Shown piece by piece: positions 28,005-37,317 of a DNA stretch of 64,000 nucleotides. Location: positions 124,001 through 188,000 of the forward strand of contig NZ_PDEQ01000005.1 of the NCBI RefSeq assembly GCF_002554795.1. Direction: 5' to 3'. The position numbers and the translations under genes were made by a program. The DNA comes from Longibacter salinarum. GTDB lineage: Bacteria > Bacteroidota > Rhodothermia > Rhodothermales > Salinibacteraceae. Under the pieces are notes generated by a model. That model saw nothing but the letters and a program-made list of their open reading frames with translations, was not told the DNA's origin and searched no databases. Positions within the stretch are counted from its first letter, which is position 1. Every line of letters begins with the position of its first letter.

Positions 28005-28982
28005 TTACGCTGCCTTCTGTGCCAGTAGACGGACCTGCTGCTCAATTGCATCCACGACTTCTGACACCCGATCGAGTCCGTCGGGATAGATGCACGCGTA
28101 CGCCGGCACCGTTCGAACGAGCGTAGCTAGCGCCTCCTGCCGTTGCGCGGACAGTCCGAGAGCATGGATCGACTGAGGCAGAAACGAATGCCGAATGCAC
28201 TCCATGATGGCTTCTGTGGGGGAAAGACGACGGAAGGCCACGTCCTGTGCGTCCGGACCTCGCTCCGGTATAAGCAATGCACGTAGCGGGACGGGATCGG
28301 ACTGAAACGTGCCAAATCCATCGACCCCGACGGGCACCCGCCGCTTGTCAAGATGAGGCACGACGCGCGGGAGGTCTGCCTCTCCAACCCAGCGCTGTAC
28401 CTGATCCGACCAGAGGCGCATCTGCGGATAGCCCGGCTGCGCCACCGGTCCGCTGGCACTCGTCGTGACAGCCAGAATGTCGTCCGTGAGCAACGGGTGC
28501 CCCCGCTCCATCATGGCGGCCGCCAGCGTGCTCTTCCCGGACTGACTTGTCGCAAGCATGCCAATGCCCGCCCCGTCCACGCTGACGCTCGCTGCATGCA
28601 GGGCCAACACCCCGCGCCGCTCCAGCCAGATCGCGAGCACGGGACCGAACAGCCAGACCTCGAGCGCGTCCGTCAGGTGCGGCTTCTTGAGATGACACGC
28701 GATCGTCTCCCGCCCGATGTAAATATCGGCCGCGCTGGCAAACCGAAGCACGGCGATGTCCGCGATGTCATCGTTCAGAAAAATCGCATCCGCCAGTCCG
28801 TCTTCGCCCTGTGACTCGATGTGTACTGGGCGTGCTCCGTCCCAGAAGTCGGGACGTGGAGACTCATCGACGACGCGGATACGAACGTCTGGAGCCCCAC
28901 TGGCTCGTGAAAGCGAGAACCGAAACGGATACGTCGATTCCAGCGTGATGCCATACGCCCGATAGATGGATGGAGAGGTCAC
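28005..28982 (-). CDS. HPr-kinase-like protein, predicted lasso-peptide kinase
   Basis: 325 residues, GTG start whose last two bases overlap the TGA of the preceding gene, so translation is coupled. The C-terminal half has the HPrK P-loop fold: LHAASV, Walker A GMLATSQSGKST (about 141-152) and the acidic LLTDDIL (about 164-170). The N-terminal half is the variable region seen in HPrK homologues of RiPP clusters rather than the HPrK_N domain of carbon regulation. Homologues in paeninodin-type lasso clusters phosphorylate the side chain of the C-terminal Ser of the precursor; the precursor 1.3 kb upstream ends in Ser. No HPr gene is near. Role inferred from family plus context. Confidence 0.82.
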   Translation of the reverse strand: MTSPSIYRAYGITLESTYPFRFSLSRASGAPDVRIRVVDESPRPDFWDGARPVHIESQGEDGLADAIFLNDDIADIAVLRFASAADIYIGRETIACHLKKPHLTDALEVWLFGPVLAIWLERRGVLALHAASVSVDGAGIGMLATSQSGKSTLAAAMMERGHPLLTDDILAVTTSASGPVAQPGYPQMRLWSDQVQRWVGEADLPRVVPHLDKRRVPVGVDGFGTFQSDPVPLRALLIPERGPDAQDVAFRRLSPTEAIMECIRHSFLPQSIHALGLSAQRQEALATLVRTVPAYACIYPDGLDRVSEVVDAIEQQVRLLAQKAA

Positions 28983-30193
28983 GAAACCGAAGCGTGATCG
29001 AAAGGGGCGGACGAAGACGAATGCTGCAAGACGTCGAACCGGACCAGTTCACCGATGAATTGTCGGGTATCGTCACGGAGCGACGCGGGAGACACGCTCG
29101 GAAACGAATCGGCAAGCCGTTCAATGGCCTCGTCGATGGACGACGCCTCCCAGAGCGCCTGCCAGAACATTGCGGAGCTGCCCGACATCGACATACACAC
29201 GCCCGACCGCGTGCTTGCAATGATCCACTTGGAATCGACCTCTGCGACGAACGTATGGGGACCGAGTGCACAGCCGGCGGTGGTTTCGGGCTGACGAAAG
29301 ACCGGCGGACGTGTTTCTGGGTTGGTGGCGTGACGGTTCTTGAGGCATGATGACGGCGAAACGACCGGCAGGCCACGCATGACCCGACCAAGCTCCTCGT
29401 CCCACACGCCGACATCGGGCTCGCTCCAGGCAAATGCCACGTGCTCGGGAACCCCCGTCCAGTACCGCTCCACCGGCCGGTTCTCCCAGCGATTTCGATA
29501 CGTACCAGCGTGATCACCCCAGCGCTCATCGGTGAAATCCTGCACGTCGCGCGCTCGGATGCACGCCCGCATCGCTGAATCCGTTTCTACCGCATCACAC
29601 AGAGCAGGCGTCGCATAAAGTGCGGCCACAACGAGATCGCGTCGGGACGCATTGTTCGTCACGAAGCGGTTTCGCTGTGCTCGAATCCGTGCACCGGTGA
29701 TGACACAATCGTCCACGATGACAAGCGGGTGTCCGTCGCTCGTTGCTTCCACGTCCCGCAGATCGATGATTTGATTGGGTCGCAGACCCAGCGCGTAGCT
29801 CAGCATGCCAAGCACGATCATTCCACCGCGCGGCAATCCGGCAAATCGCGCCTGCTCTAGGTCGGCACCGAGTCGATTCGACAGGTTCGCTGCCAGCACC
29901 TCGCAGTCTGTCTCCGCCTGCTGGTAGTCAACGTACCGAAGGTCGCGGACAGTCGACGGAACCTGGCGGACGAGCGCCTCCAGCCGGGATGCATCGGTAT
30001 CGTTCAGAAATCCGAGCATCGCGACCCGGCGGTCCGGCCTGGGTCGCACAACACACGCCATCGGAGGAAACGAAGACCACGCCGGACTTGTGACCATTCC
30101 TTCAGCCACGCGCATGACCCGTTCCGGGTCTGCGCCAGCAGCCTCTATCGGTATCTCAGTAACCACGCAGCGGGGCCGAAGGGGAGAAGACAT
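28979..30193 (-). CDS. Phosphoribosyltransferase-like / PqqD-RRE-like fusion in a lasso-peptide cluster
   Basis: 404 residues with two recognisable halves. Residues about 85-200 look like a type I phosphoribosyltransferase: FAGLPRGGMIVLGMLSYALGL (PRGG at 121-124) and the PRPP loop VIVDDCVITGARI (158-170), including the paired Asp residues. Residues about 300-392 look like a PqqD/RiPP-recognition element: a short beta start (FVAEVDSKWIIASTRSG) and then helices (MFWQALWEASSIDEAIERLADSF). In lasso systems the RRE binds the precursor leader and is usually a stand-alone B1 or fused to the B2 peptidase. Fusion to a PRTase-like domain is new to me and suggests PRPP-dependent modification of the peptide. 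It could also be a degenerate, purely structural PRTase fold. Confidence 0.75.
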   Translation of the reverse strand: MSSPLRPRCVVTEIPIEAAGADPERVMRVAEGMVTSPAWSSFPPMACVVRPRPDRRVAMLGFLNDTDASRLEALVRQVPSTVRDLRYVDYQQAETDCEVLAANLSNRLGADLEQARFAGLPRGGMIVLGMLSYALGLRPNQIIDLRDVEATSDGHPLVIVDDCVITGARIRAQRNRFVTNNASRRDLVVAALYATPALCDAVETDSAMRACIRARDVQDFTDERWGDHAGTYRNRWENRPVERYWTGVPEHVAFAWSEPDVGVWDEELGRVMRGLPVVSPSSCLKNRHATNPETRPPVFRQPETTAGCALGPHTFVAEVDSKWIIASTRSGVCMSMSGSSAMFWQALWEASSIDEAIERLADSFPSVSPASLRDDTRQFIGELVRFDVLQHSSSSAPFDHASVS

Positions 30194-30300: not shown

Positions 30301-30465
30301 CTAACTCTGGTTCCCCCAGCAGTTTGCGTTCATACTTGATCCGCGTAGGTCATCTCCATACACCTGACAGTCACTACCGGGATTGGTGCGTCCCGCGGCT
30401 GTCAGGTCGGCCACCGTTCCATGCACTTTTAGGCGTGGCGACTCATATTTTTTGGAGTCTTTCAT
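30301..30465 (-). CDS. Lasso peptide precursor (54 residues)
   Basis: A short gene, ATG at 30465, stop TAG at 30303-30301. Its ATG overlaps the TGA of the cyclase gene (ATGA), so it is translationally coupled. Residues 7-22 read YESPRLKVHGTVADLT, an exact fit to the lasso leader pattern Y-xx-P-x-L-xxx-G-xxxxx-T that RRE domains bind. Using the conserved Thr at position -2, the core starts at Ala24 with AGRTNPGSD, so Asp32 is core residue 9 and can close a 9-residue Ala1-Asp9 macrolactam. The core is 31 residues, has Cys at core positions 10 and 26 (a possible disulfide), and ends GNQS. A C-terminal Ser suits the HPrK-like kinase in the cluster. An 8-membered ring from Gly25 is the alternative. 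Confidence 0.9.
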   Translation of the reverse strand: MKDSKKYESPRLKVHGTVADLTAAGRTNPGSDCQVYGDDLRGSSMNANCWGNQS

Positions 30466-32402
30466 AACGTCGTTGTGTGTCTATGAGAAAAACTTGGCCG
30501 GGACTTGTCATCTGAAGCGTGAGCACAGTGTTGCCGCAGCCATCGCTCAAGTACCAGCGTATACCAGAACCGGTGATCGTTTTGCCGACCCTCCCGGAAC
30601 TCATCGTAATACGCACGCAGACGATGGACATCGATAAAGCCCAGGTCGCGTAGCCTTGGACCCTTTAATAACGCGGCGACATGTTCTTTCTCCGTCATCC
30701 TTAGCGCACGGAGAAACAGTGCTTCCGGATATATCTTCTGCGCTCGCACACCGGGCATCATCTCCTCAAAGGCCGCTCGAGCAACAGATTTATTCTCCCC
30801 ACCACGGCAGATTACCGACGGTGGAACGGCCATAACCCATTCGAACAGCCGTCGGTCGCTCCACGGATCGGCCGACGCAAGTCCCTCACGGACTGCATCA
30901 AAGTTATTGCGTGTCCCGCCTCGCATGTGCCCCCCGAGCGTAGCCAGTTCGTACCGCTCGCGGCGAACACCGCTCAGTCCGATCGGAATGTGCGAGGACG
31001 AACCAGACGGCGCCGGGTAGTGACGCAGAGCATCGGTCGCCCAGGGCGGACAATCGACTCGCGGTACGGGCGAATCTTCCGGTGAACGCAAGCCGCTCGC
31101 TCGAAGCCAACGACCGACTCTGACACGTAGTGGCCCGATGACTTGCTCACGCACGACATCACGCAACGGCCGATTCTCCCGCTCCGCATGCTGGAGAAGC
31201 TCGCTCACCAGACGGTACCATTGTCCCGACCCCAACAGGCCGAGATAGTCGAATAGCCGGCCGCCCACCATCAGATCGCCATGATGCCCGCTCATCAGCG
31301 TGCAGCACGAGTCACGCGCCGCCAGCTCGTATCCCCTGAGTAGAAGGTGATGAAACCCGGAGACGTACGGCTCCTCCAGGTTGGGCTCCGGGTCGCGACG
31401 GACGAGCGGTACGGAATCAACGTCAATGAGCGTCGACGAAAATCCGTACCGGCAAACGATTTCGTCGCTGACGAACCGCTCATCACACACGGGCAGCGTC
31501 GGGAAGTCGAACGAATACGTTCGGAGTGGCGCGACCGAAACGCCTTGCTCATCAAGCCAACCGGCCGTCACGGCGATAGCGGTTGAATCTACACCGCCAC
31601 TCAGCAGCAGGCCGACCGGGTCGGGCGTTTGCAATCGACAGCGAACCGCCTCGGCAAACAGTTCGCGGAAATGCTCGACGTACTCCTCGTCCCGCCGATA
31701 GCGAATTCTTTGGCCGGGGTCAATGTCCCAGACCCGGCGCACGGCCGACGATCCCGGCGATGCAATGAGAGCATGCGCCGGAGGCACGGCGTGGATGCCC
31801 TCAATGAACGTGTGCGAGGGATGCTCGAAGTCGCCAGCCAGATATGCGGCAATAGCAGGCTCGTGCAGGTCGCTCGACACGCCGGGGACCGCCGTGATCG
31901 CCCCAACCTCGGATGCTAGCAGGAGTCGATCGCCGTCCTGCCGGTAGTACAGGCCGCGCATGGCCATCGGGTCGCGGGCCGCAAAGAGCCGGCGTCGGGC
32001 TGGATCCCAGACCGCGAAGGCAAAGTCGCCAATCAGGTGCTCGAGGCAAGCCGTGCCCCATCGTCGAAATGCCGCGGCGATCAGGTCCGTGTCCGATGCG
32101 TCGGGACGCAGATCATTAGCCAGTATATGCTCCAGATCCTCACGGTTGTCGATTCTCGCATCGGCCACGACGATCAGGCCCCCACGCCGCGACGCATCAC
32201 CGTGCTTTCTAATCCTGCGCTCTTTCGTCGCGTGATCCGCGTGCGTGACGTGCAGGTCGAATTGCACGAGAGCTGCGTCCGCGTCCATCGAAGCCTGCAC
32301 GCCATCCGGTCCTCGGTGCGCGAGCGCTGAGACCATTGCCTGTGCCGCGTCCGGCGCCCCGGGGCGACGATCGAAGTGAATGCAGGCACAGAGGCCTCCC
32401 AT
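30462..32402 (-). CDS. Lasso peptide cyclase (asparagine-synthetase-like, C protein)
   Basis: 646 residues with both parts of glutamine-dependent asparagine synthetase: an N-terminal glutaminase-like domain (about 1-210, with HRGPDG and IGDFAFAVWD) and a C-terminal ATP-pyrophosphatase domain whose PPi loop LLLSGGVDST is at about 266-274. The protein begins MGGLCAC, so the nucleophilic Cys2 of active glutaminases is replaced by Gly and ammonia cannot be made. That loss is common in lasso cyclases, which use the synthetase domain to adenylate an Asp/Glu side chain and join it to the core's N-terminus. The lasso precursor gene starts in overlap with its stop. Without that context it would be called a degenerate AsnB. 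Confidence 0.88.
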   Translation of the reverse strand: MGGLCACIHFDRRPGAPDAAQAMVSALAHRGPDGVQASMDADAALVQFDLHVTHADHATKERRIRKHGDASRRGGLIVVADARIDNREDLEHILANDLRPDASDTDLIAAAFRRWGTACLEHLIGDFAFAVWDPARRRLFAARDPMAMRGLYYRQDGDRLLLASEVGAITAVPGVSSDLHEPAIAAYLAGDFEHPSHTFIEGIHAVPPAHALIASPGSSAVRRVWDIDPGQRIRYRRDEEYVEHFRELFAEAVRCRLQTPDPVGLLLSGGVDSTAIAVTAGWLDEQGVSVAPLRTYSFDFPTLPVCDERFVSDEIVCRYGFSSTLIDVDSVPLVRRDPEPNLEEPYVSGFHHLLLRGYELAARDSCCTLMSGHHGDLMVGGRLFDYLGLLGSGQWYRLVSELLQHAERENRPLRDVVREQVIGPLRVRVGRWLRASGLRSPEDSPVPRVDCPPWATDALRHYPAPSGSSSHIPIGLSGVRRERYELATLGGHMRGGTRNNFDAVREGLASADPWSDRRLFEWVMAVPPSVICRGGENKSVARAAFEEMMPGVRAQKIYPEALFLRALRMTEKEHVAALLKGPRLRDLGFIDVHRLRAYYDEFREGRQNDHRFWYTLVLERWLRQHCAHASDDKSRPSFSHRHTTTL

Positions 32403-35124: not shown

Positions 35125-35386
35125 TTGCCCCTGCCCTACGGGTCGGACAACGGTAGATACCGTTTTCCTGACATACCAATCGAGAAAATGCGCAACCCGT
35201 AGCTACCCGATTCCTGCGAACGGAATACGCTGAAACCGGTTAACGGAGCATAGCAGTTCGTTCTACTTTTTTGTATCCGGCATGAACGCCTTTGCTCATC
35301 CGTGGACAAGGGCTGGCGGGCGCGGTCGCTGTAGGCATGTCGGTATTCACACGTATAACCTCCCACCTACAGCCACTAGGATCGCG

Positions 35387-36094
35387 ATGAAAACAGACAC
35401 CGAATGGGGATACGTTGGCGAGGAAGGTCCCACCCACTGGGCCGACCTGTCGAATGAGTTCTGCGCATGCGGAGGAGATCGGCAGTCTCCGATCGATCTA
35501 CCCGTTCATGCGGCGGCGGAAGAGACCCTCGCCCTCTCCATCGACTACACCAAAGCTGATGGTACACTGAGTTATTCGAGTTACGGCGTCAAGATGCAGC
35601 TGAAGGGGGGCACGCTCACGCTGGACGGGACGACGTACGAACTTGTCCAATTCCACTTCCACACGCCCAGCGAGCATCAAATCGGGGGGCGCAGCTTCCC
35701 CGGCGAGATGCACCTCGTCCACGTGAGCGAAAGCGGTCATCTAGTTGTTATCGGCATTTTTCTCGAGAATGGGAAGACCAACTCCACCCTTGCTCCCATC
35801 TGGTCAACCTTTCCCGAGGTCGAGACGGCCCCGCCCATACCGTTCGATCCCTCGGACCTGCTGCCACCCAGCCGGACGGGCTATGTATACGAAGGCTCGC
35901 TGACCACGCCACCCTGCACCGAGGACGTGACGTGGCTGGTGCTAAGTGAGCCGCTATATCTCTCCGACGTTCAGATCGAGAAACTGGCGGCCGTCCACGC
36001 GGAGATCAACGTGCACAACAGTCGGCCCGTCCAGCCGGTCAATGATCGACACGTACGGTTCGTGTCGCTACATCCAGCGCCCCGACTTGCGTAA
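35387..36094 (+). CDS. Alpha-class carbonic anhydrase without a signal peptide
   Basis: Interconverts CO2 and bicarbonate. 235 residues from the ATG at 35387 (MKTDTEWGYVGEEGP). Zinc ligands are visible: two His in QFHFHTPSEH (90 and 92) and His109 in EMHLVH; also QSPIDL and EGSLTTPPCTEDVTWLVL. The paired Cys positions (26/28 and 177) match the disulfide of secreted alpha-CAs, yet no hydrophobic signal precedes the domain, and the in-frame extension to 35282 is not signal-like either. So it may be cytosolic, exported by another route, or its true start is missed. A beta-class enzyme that does carry a signal peptide lies 0.5 kb downstream. Confidence 0.93.
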   Translation: MKTDTEWGYVGEEGPTHWADLSNEFCACGGDRQSPIDLPVHAAAEETLALSIDYTKADGTLSYSSYGVKMQLKGGTLTLDGTTYELVQFHFHTPSEHQIGGRSFPGEMHLVHVSESGHLVVIGIFLENGKTNSTLAPIWSTFPEVETAPPIPFDPSDLLPPSRTGYVYEGSLTTPPCTEDVTWLVLSEPLYLSDVQIEKLAAVHAEINVHNSRPVQPVNDRHVRFVSLHPAPRLA

Positions 36095-36570: not shown

Positions 36571-37317
36571 ATGAGGCGAATTCTGTTTCTCTTTTCCCTC
36601 CTCCTCGTTATCCAGACCGGCGTCGCCGTTGCTCAGGAAAAACCCGACGTGTCCGATCGGGATCTGACGCAGGCGCTCACGAAGGAAATGCAGGCGGCAC
36701 TAACCCCGATGGATGTCATCCAGCTACTGAAGGATGGCAACCAGCGGTTTATAAATGACGAAGCCCTTGAGCGCAACTTCCTGGAGCAGGTTGCGCAAAC
36801 GGCCGAGGGCCAATACCCGATGGCCGCTGTTCTCGGCTGCATCGATAGCCGCGTCCCCCACGAGATCATCTTCGACAAAGGCGTCGGCGACATCTTCTCC
36901 GCTCGCGTCGCAGGAAACTTTATCAATACGGACATCCTCGGTAGCCTTGAGTTTGCGGCCGCCGTTGCTGGCTCCAAAGTGATCGTCGTCCTCGGCCACT
37001 CCGAGTGCGGAGCCGTCAAAGGGGCCTGTGATCAGGTGGAACTCGGCAACCTGACGAGTACGCTCGCCAACATCGCCCCCGCGATCTACTCCGTCACCGA
37101 TGTCGAGGGAGAACGCAATTCGTCGAATAAGGCGTTCGTCGATGCGGTCGCTCACGAGAACGTGGACATCACCGTGCAAAACATTGTGGATCGCAGCCCG
37201 GTAATCCGTGACCTCGTGGAGAAAGGCGAACTGATCGTTGTCGGCGCTATGCACAACGTCACGTCGGGCGAGGTCACGTTCTTCGAGGACAACATGCTCA
37301 CGGCAGATACGCTCTAA
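36571..37317 (+). CDS. Beta-class carbonic anhydrase with signal peptide
   Basis: 248 residues. An N-terminal signal peptide (MRRILFLFSLLLVIQTGVAVAQ) ends in a plausible Ala-x-Ala-Gln site, so the enzyme should be periplasmic. The beta-CA zinc site is complete: Cys90 and the Asp-Arg dyad in LGCIDSRVP, and His143 and Cys146 in LGHSECGAVKGA. The ARVAGNF motif is present. Most beta-CAs are cytosolic; exported ones are a minority. Together with the signal-less alpha-CA upstream, this gives the reverse of the usual locations for the two classes. Confidence 0.94.
   Translation: MRRILFLFSLLLVIQTGVAVAQEKPDVSDRDLTQALTKEMQAALTPMDVIQLLKDGNQRFINDEALERNFLEQVAQTAEGQYPMAAVLGCIDSRVPHEIIFDKGVGDIFSARVAGNFINTDILGSLEFAAAVAGSKVIVVLGHSECGAVKGACDQVELGNLTSTLANIAPAIYSVTDVEGERNSSNKAFVDAVAHENVDITVQNIVDRSPVIRDLVEKGELIVVGAMHNVTSGEVTFFEDNMLTADTL

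Follow-up and report, generated by a model that had tools for sequence, protein, structure and literature searches.

A predicted lasso peptide precursor of Longibacter salinarum encoded beside an RRE-fused phosphoribosyltransferase and an HPr-kinase-like kinase

The lasso peptide kinases reported so far act on the linear precursor; those of the PadeK type modify a C-terminal serine (PMC10368454, PMC9266682), and BsfK of Bradymonas, aided by B1, phosphorylates a serine of the ring (PMC10368454). In the case of pseudomycoidin, a second enzyme adds a hexose to the phosphorylated peptide (PMC8498205). The minus strand of the window analyzed here, i.e., a stretch of 64,000 nucleotides of L. salinarum contig NZ_PDEQ01000005.1, carries four tightly packed genes coding for a cyclase, a 54-aa precursor, a 404-aa fusion of a phosphoribosyltransferase (PRTase) with an RRE domain, and a 325-aa kinase, the start of the kinase gene overlapping the 3' end of the PRTase-RRE gene (Table 1). 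The leader motif, the cyclase, split B1/B2 proteins and a kinase with a His-Lys-Asp-Asp motif are common to this system and the phosphorylated lasso clusters of paeninodin (PadeK), ThcoK, SyanK and BsfK (PMC10368454, PMC9266682). However, a PRTase-RRE protein, which characterizes the window class, is not described for these systems in the literature searched, the precursors of the window class mostly do not end in serine, and the window cluster is devoid of B1, B2 and an exporter. The pathway of the phosphoglycosylated lasso peptide pseudomycoidin (PsmK and PsmN; PMC8498205, PMC9266682) likewise combines a kinase with a second, sugar-adding enzyme. A protein (N) equal to PsmN in size and cluster position is encoded in trans on contig C3, but it is located far from the window precursor, and the window cluster additionally contains the RRE-fused PRTase.

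Table 1. Genes of the lasso-type cluster in the window
Feature	Position	Strand	Description	Basis
HPr-kinase-like peptide kinase K	28005..28982	-	325 aa	PF07475 and TIGR04352 below cut-off; conserved motif
PRTase-RRE fusion	28979..30193	-	404 aa; type I PRTase roughly 85-260, PqqD/RRE 323-385	Pfam, AF2, Foldseek, motif
Lasso precursor A	30301..30465	-	54 aa; leader 1-23, core 24-54 (AGRTNPGSDCQVYGDDLRGSSMNANCWGNQS); predicted ring Ala1-Asp9	NF033521; precursors of relatives at the equivalent position
Lasso cyclase C	30462..32402	-	646 aa, asparagine-synthetase-like	PF00733 and GATase_7; NF033535; tree

The precursor frame runs from ATG to TAG and comprises the leader MKDSKKYESPRLKVHGTVADLTA and the core listed in Table 1. 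The first-pass annotation had described it as a lasso precursor, and its account agrees with the sequence: the ATG overlaps the TGA stop codon of the cyclase gene (ATGA), residues 7-22 (YESPRLKVHGTVADLT) fit the leader pattern YxxPxLxxxGxxxxxT fully, Thr22 occupies position -2 and Ala24 the first position of a 31-residue core, in which Asp32 is residue 9, cysteines are found at positions 10 and 26, and Ser31 is the last residue. An acidic residue within core positions 7-9, as expected of a lasso peptide, is thus present. For the core minus water, the calculated monoisotopic mass is 3241.336 Da, or 3239.320 Da with a disulfide. The leader matched the NCBIfam model NF033521 (lasso_leader_L3) with 22.5 bits, above the cut-off of 19, and when all six frames of the genome were searched with this model, exactly two sites emerged, namely the window precursor and one on contig C6 beside another cyclase. 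The strict leader motif occurs once in the short ORFs of the window, as compared to 0.017 times per dinucleotide shuffle. The frame directly adjoins a gene for an asparagine-synthetase-like macrolactam cyclase, whose PF00733 match is above the cut-off, with GATase_7 also matched, and whose top NCBIfam match is to NF033535 (lasso cyclase; E 7.7e-97, below the strict cut-off of 525). It is short and lacks a clear Shine-Dalgarno site upstream (by eye), as might be expected of a chance ORF with the true precursor located elsewhere, but we regard this explanation as very improbable, given the NF033521 match above the cut-off, the mere two sites in the genome, and especially the conservation of position and ring in relatives. 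The annotation had named missing conservation beside the same cyclase as the observation that would speak against a precursor; relatives retain the frame, the leader and the Asp9 ring. Together with the genes for an RRE and a kinase that follow in this run, and with the homologous precursors at the equivalent position of related clusters, these data support the lasso reading, and there is hardly any doubt that the 54-residue frame encodes a genuine lasso peptide precursor.

The 404-aa protein matched PF05402 (PqqD) with 32.0 bits, above the cut-off, and PF24390 (PRTase-CE) with 24.7 bits, slightly below the cut-off of 27; among 12 homologues, PqqD was matched in 11, Pribosyltran in 6 (weakly) and PRTase-CE in 4. 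Foldseek searches with an AF2 model (11 sequences, mean pLDDT 82.5, pTM 0.72) returned xanthine-guanine PRTases (XGPRT; E 2.7e-5, TMt 0.5-0.6) and leader-bound TbiB1 (TMt 0.78-0.81, rmsd 1.7-2.2), and the profile of the protein matched the lasso RRE sequences of TbiB1 (E 6.9e-12) and TfuB1 (E 3e-7). The C-terminal domain accordingly resembles TbiB1 (PDB 5v1u/5v1v) in sequence and fold and TfuB1 (6jx3) in sequence; these proteins are stand-alone, whereas the RRE of the window is fused behind a PRTase. With E. coli XGPRT (1a95/1nul), the PRTase part has the fold, the RGG loop and the DDxxxTG PRPP motif in common, but the window protein possesses an extra N-terminal part in addition to the RRE fusion. 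Its PRPP motif, VIVDDCVITG, which includes Asp161 and Asp162, conforms to the type I pattern hhhhDDxxxTG; VDDxxxTGxR is present without exception in the 12 homologues, and PRGG is almost invariant among them. An hhalign comparison of the profile with E. coli XGPRT, whose sequence was confirmed against PDB 1a95, aligned both RGG and DDxxxTG (E 4.8e-4, at a probability of only 32%). Judged by sequence and structural model, the protein is an XGPRT-like phosphoribosyltransferase fused to a lasso RRE (PqqD) domain. An XGPRT-like base-stacking tryptophan was considered as a clue to a purine acceptor, but only a PW motif is conserved; because the alignment with XGPRT ends before this motif, a purine acceptor is not claimed. 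To our knowledge, a peptide acceptor would be unprecedented for a class I PRTase.

Scanning of 84,980 species genomes for the PRTase-RRE fusion yielded 12 loci; no match was found among 72,556 plasmids. PRTase-RRE genes located beside a cyclase, a precursor and/or a kinase were found in Rhodothermales, Cyanobacteria, Deinococcota, Gemmatimonadota, Chloroflexota and Spirochaetes, hence in six bacterial phyla according to the labels of the contigs, and on one contig labelled Euryarchaeota. The six non-Rhodothermales loci with lasso parts are those of a Trueperaceae MAG, Nodosilinea, and MAGs assigned to Gemmatimonadetes, Chloroflexota, Euryarchaeota and Spirochaetales; the short contig of the Euryarchaeota-labelled MAG, whose label is unverified, contains cyclase and PRTase only, and the 3.8 kb contig of the Spirochaetales MAG contains precursor, PRTase and kinase genes without a cyclase. 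Wherever a contig with lasso parts has sufficient length for judgement, the kinase gene directly adjoins the PRTase gene. In a cyclase tree, the 11 rows from PRTase clusters group together in a single clade (100/99) as against 18 lasso rows without PRTase (in two cases a pair of rows represents one gene, and some of the rows are incomplete), and the kinases form one clade as well (100/100; 9 rows versus 6 without PRTase); the PRTase-less rows stem from Rhodothermales only, and a wider sample could alter this picture. Domain content and clade structure thus place the window precursor, as far as sequence comparison goes, in a little-noticed, multi-phylum group of lasso clusters with an RRE-fused PRTase and an HPr-kinase-like kinase. 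Searches for lasso peptides combined with phosphoribosyltransferases, for PRTase-CE, for RRE combined with phosphoribosyl, and for split lasso clusters returned nothing relevant in the literature searched, which mostly excluded subscription papers.

Some loci show further arrangements. In a Chloroflexi MAG (L028:8567-10462), an HPr-kinase-like frame (by eye) lies on the strand opposite to the PRTase-RRE gene, overlapping or facing it, and the 18.8 kb contig gave no match to a lasso cyclase; such a pair of kinase and PRTase-RRE may also be at work in another RiPP type. A shorter PRTase-RRE of 302 aa in a further Chloroflexi MAG (L030:2365-3273) adjoins a Ser/Thr-kinase-like gene (by eye), likewise on a contig without a matched cyclase. 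Two tandem lasso cyclases, accompanied by a single precursor as judged by motif search, are encoded in a Gemmatimonadetes MAG (L022:3811-7639).

A separate canonical B1 is present in the PRTase clusters of Nodosilinea, of the Gemmatimonadetes, Chloroflexota and Trueperaceae MAGs, and of relative G012; the fused RRE is therefore an additional one. It is conceivable that all leaders are served by the canonical B1, with the fused RRE idle. Some PRTase-fold proteins, such as PyrR, regulate rather than catalyze, and the Foldseek matches of the model include a PRTase-fold protein with bound ppGpp. One might therefore think of a conventional pathway to a phosphorylated lasso peptide, with the fused RRE in the place of B1 and a PRTase domain that only senses PRPP or nucleotides or persists as a structural relic, all the more as known B1 proteins aid both kinase and peptidase (PMC10368454) and the kinase gene adjoins that of PRTase-RRE wherever this could be judged. 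We consider this improbable, since several PRTase clusters possess a canonical B1 besides the fusion and the PRPP motif is invariant across phyla, which argues against the PRTase being a mere leftover.

The kinase of the window matched PF07475 and TIGR04352, both below the cut-off; its His-Lys-Asp-Asp motif (H129, K150, D167, D168) is kept in all 15 aligned kinases. The annotation had allowed for phosphorylation of the peptide, and the terminal Ser31 would be the PadeK-type site. Comparison of eight precursors of the PRTase class, with cores starting AGRTNPGSD (window), AGGTNPGSD (Spirochaetales MAG), VGLTRPGGD (Trueperaceae MAG), TGLTRPGDD (Gemmatimonadetes MAG), TGNSNPDND (relative G009), AGDVGGSGD (G012), GSGSARRTD (Chloroflexota MAG) and VGMTFTTD (Nodosilinea), revealed that only the window precursor ends in serine, the others having Arg, Gly, Val or Trp as the last residue. 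The C-terminal phosphosite that defines the PadeK subtype is thus not conserved in the class, and phosphorylation of the last residue should therefore not be assumed. Residue 4 of the core, which is Thr or Ser in seven of the eight precursors, is the better-conserved hydroxyl.

Neither B2 nor an exporter was detected near the window cluster by Pfam and NCBIfam searches and ORF reading, and B1 is likewise absent beside it, so the cluster is not self-sufficient; these parts are encoded elsewhere in the genome (22 contigs, 99.76% complete). The sole B2 of the genome is located at C3:438629 (NF033537, 80.3 bits, cut-off 33), and the only two PqqD domains are those of a canonical B1 at C3:439096 (above the Pfam cut-off) and of the window fusion. 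The C3 block has the order exporter, nucleotidyltransferase, B2, B1 (D-N-B2-B1) and contains neither cyclase nor precursor; its nucleotidyltransferase, for which there was no NCBIfam match, was named from its position and from homologues in lasso clusters. Contig C6 harbors a second cyclase-kinase-precursor set (C-K-A; precursor leader MDNKKSKSYEPPRLSELGRVEDITA, core AGQNGYCLDDSFQAGTPFDDLTFSVCS), again without B1, B2 and exporter. As deduced from contig positions, the lasso loci are separated by at least about 230 kb. The window and C6 precursors have the same TA/AG context at the predicted cut site, as expected if a single peptidase handles both. In relatives, the parts occur together: G017 has the order C-A-K-D-N-B2-B1, D-N-B2-B1 lies beside C-K-A-A-A in G003 and G010, and G012 possesses a double cluster. 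The window pathway is probably completed in trans by the distant B1/B2/exporter block, and sharing of B1 and B2 between the loci would be the simplest reading of the gene inventory.

In G012, a member of the same family, the run B2-C-A-PRTase/RRE-K includes a precursor with the leader MTDQKANSDYQSPSVERWGTVLDLTS and a core beginning AGDVGGSGDTFQ; its double lasso cluster also contains a gene (L009:5158-5865) for a 235-aa protein resembling 2-oxoglutarate/Fe oxygenases (by eye). As in the window, the lasso module is located beside atpD in G009 and G013; in the latter, it is divided across contig ends. In G009, the cognate cyclase gene is interrupted by a transposase-like gene, the YxxP part of the precursor leader is degraded, and a B2 match is absent from the genome. 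The G009 precursor and the 3' end of the split cyclase share one reading frame, with no intervening stop codon (L010:7618-9252, identical to L023:7930-9564); this arrangement is a decaying or fused state. Near atpD of G016 (L080:5605-6907), a nucleotidyltransferase homologue occurs in two broken frames, and cyclase, PRTase and kinase are absent; it may be what is left of the same lasso module. At the site corresponding to that of the window cluster, atpD directly adjoins a metalloprotease gene in G012 and G006, and the congener G001 has a different gene and no cluster remnants; the lasso module of the window is thus a variable insert. A plain repeat-bounded insertion was rejected, the sole flanking inverted-repeat pair showing 72% complementarity, which is at chance level (11-base seed, 5.4 kb). 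The GC content of the cassette (0.617) is the same as that of its surroundings, and there is therefore no compositional sign of recent transfer. Elsewhere in the window, two carbonic-anhydrase-like genes, one alpha-like and one beta-like (by eye), lie less than 500 bases apart (35282-36094 and 36571-37317).

The condition of the G009 module, the absence of the cluster from the site in G001, and the lack of B1, B2 and exporter genes beside the window cluster might suggest that the latter is itself a decaying remnant without a product, which has lost these genes, and that the C3 block serves the C6 set only. We deem this unlikely: all four genes of the cluster have uninterrupted reading frames, which overlap or almost overlap, the leader retains every motif position, the His-Lys-Asp-Asp motif of the kinase and the PRPP motif of the PRTase are intact, and the TA/AG context is common to both precursors of the genome.

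We thus favor, with some confidence, a model of RRE-guided phosphorylation and phosphoribosylation, leader removal by a shared B1/B2 pair, and cyclization. The genes with their domains and motifs, the counts across the genome and the clades of the trees were read from the sequence; from these we infer that the fused RRE binds the leader and the PRTase acts on a peptide, which residue is modified, in which order the steps occur, and that B1/B2 are shared. The fused RRE would bind the leader and present the linear core to the catalytic site of the PRTase. Kinase K would phosphorylate a hydroxyl of the core, either Thr4 or, in the window precursor, possibly Ser31, and the PRTase would move a 5-phosphoribosyl group from PRPP onto the peptide, possibly onto the phosphate added by the kinase. 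The B1/B2 pair would then remove the leader, and the neighboring cyclase would close the Ala1-Asp9 ring; B1, B2, nucleotidyltransferase and ABC exporter would be supplied in trans by the C3 block, which would serve the C6 set, too. The acceptor residue and the order of steps are guesses. A phosphate acceptor is chemically reasonable because a membrane PRTase of different fold uses a lipid phosphate as the acceptor of phosphoribosyl (PMC10994848). This reaction, the use of linear precursors by known kinases and the PsmN-type addition of a sugar are the grounds for proposing that kinase and PRTase both modify the leader-bound precursor before B1/B2 and the cyclase act. That an RRE-fused PRTase phosphoribosylates a lasso precursor, a modification absent from the literature searched, in a class spanning several phyla, and that one B1/B2/exporter block matures two precursors, is put forward tentatively, at somewhat less than even likelihood.

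The list of known lasso tailoring chemistries is short, and a PRTase with a predicted leader-binding domain of its own, traveling with the lasso kinase across several phyla, points to a new RiPP tailoring step. With the B1/B2/exporter block separated from the precursors, cluster-based mining can overlook or misjudge split lasso pathways such as this one. The separated block of L. salinarum also provides a natural case in which a single processing set may serve two precursors.
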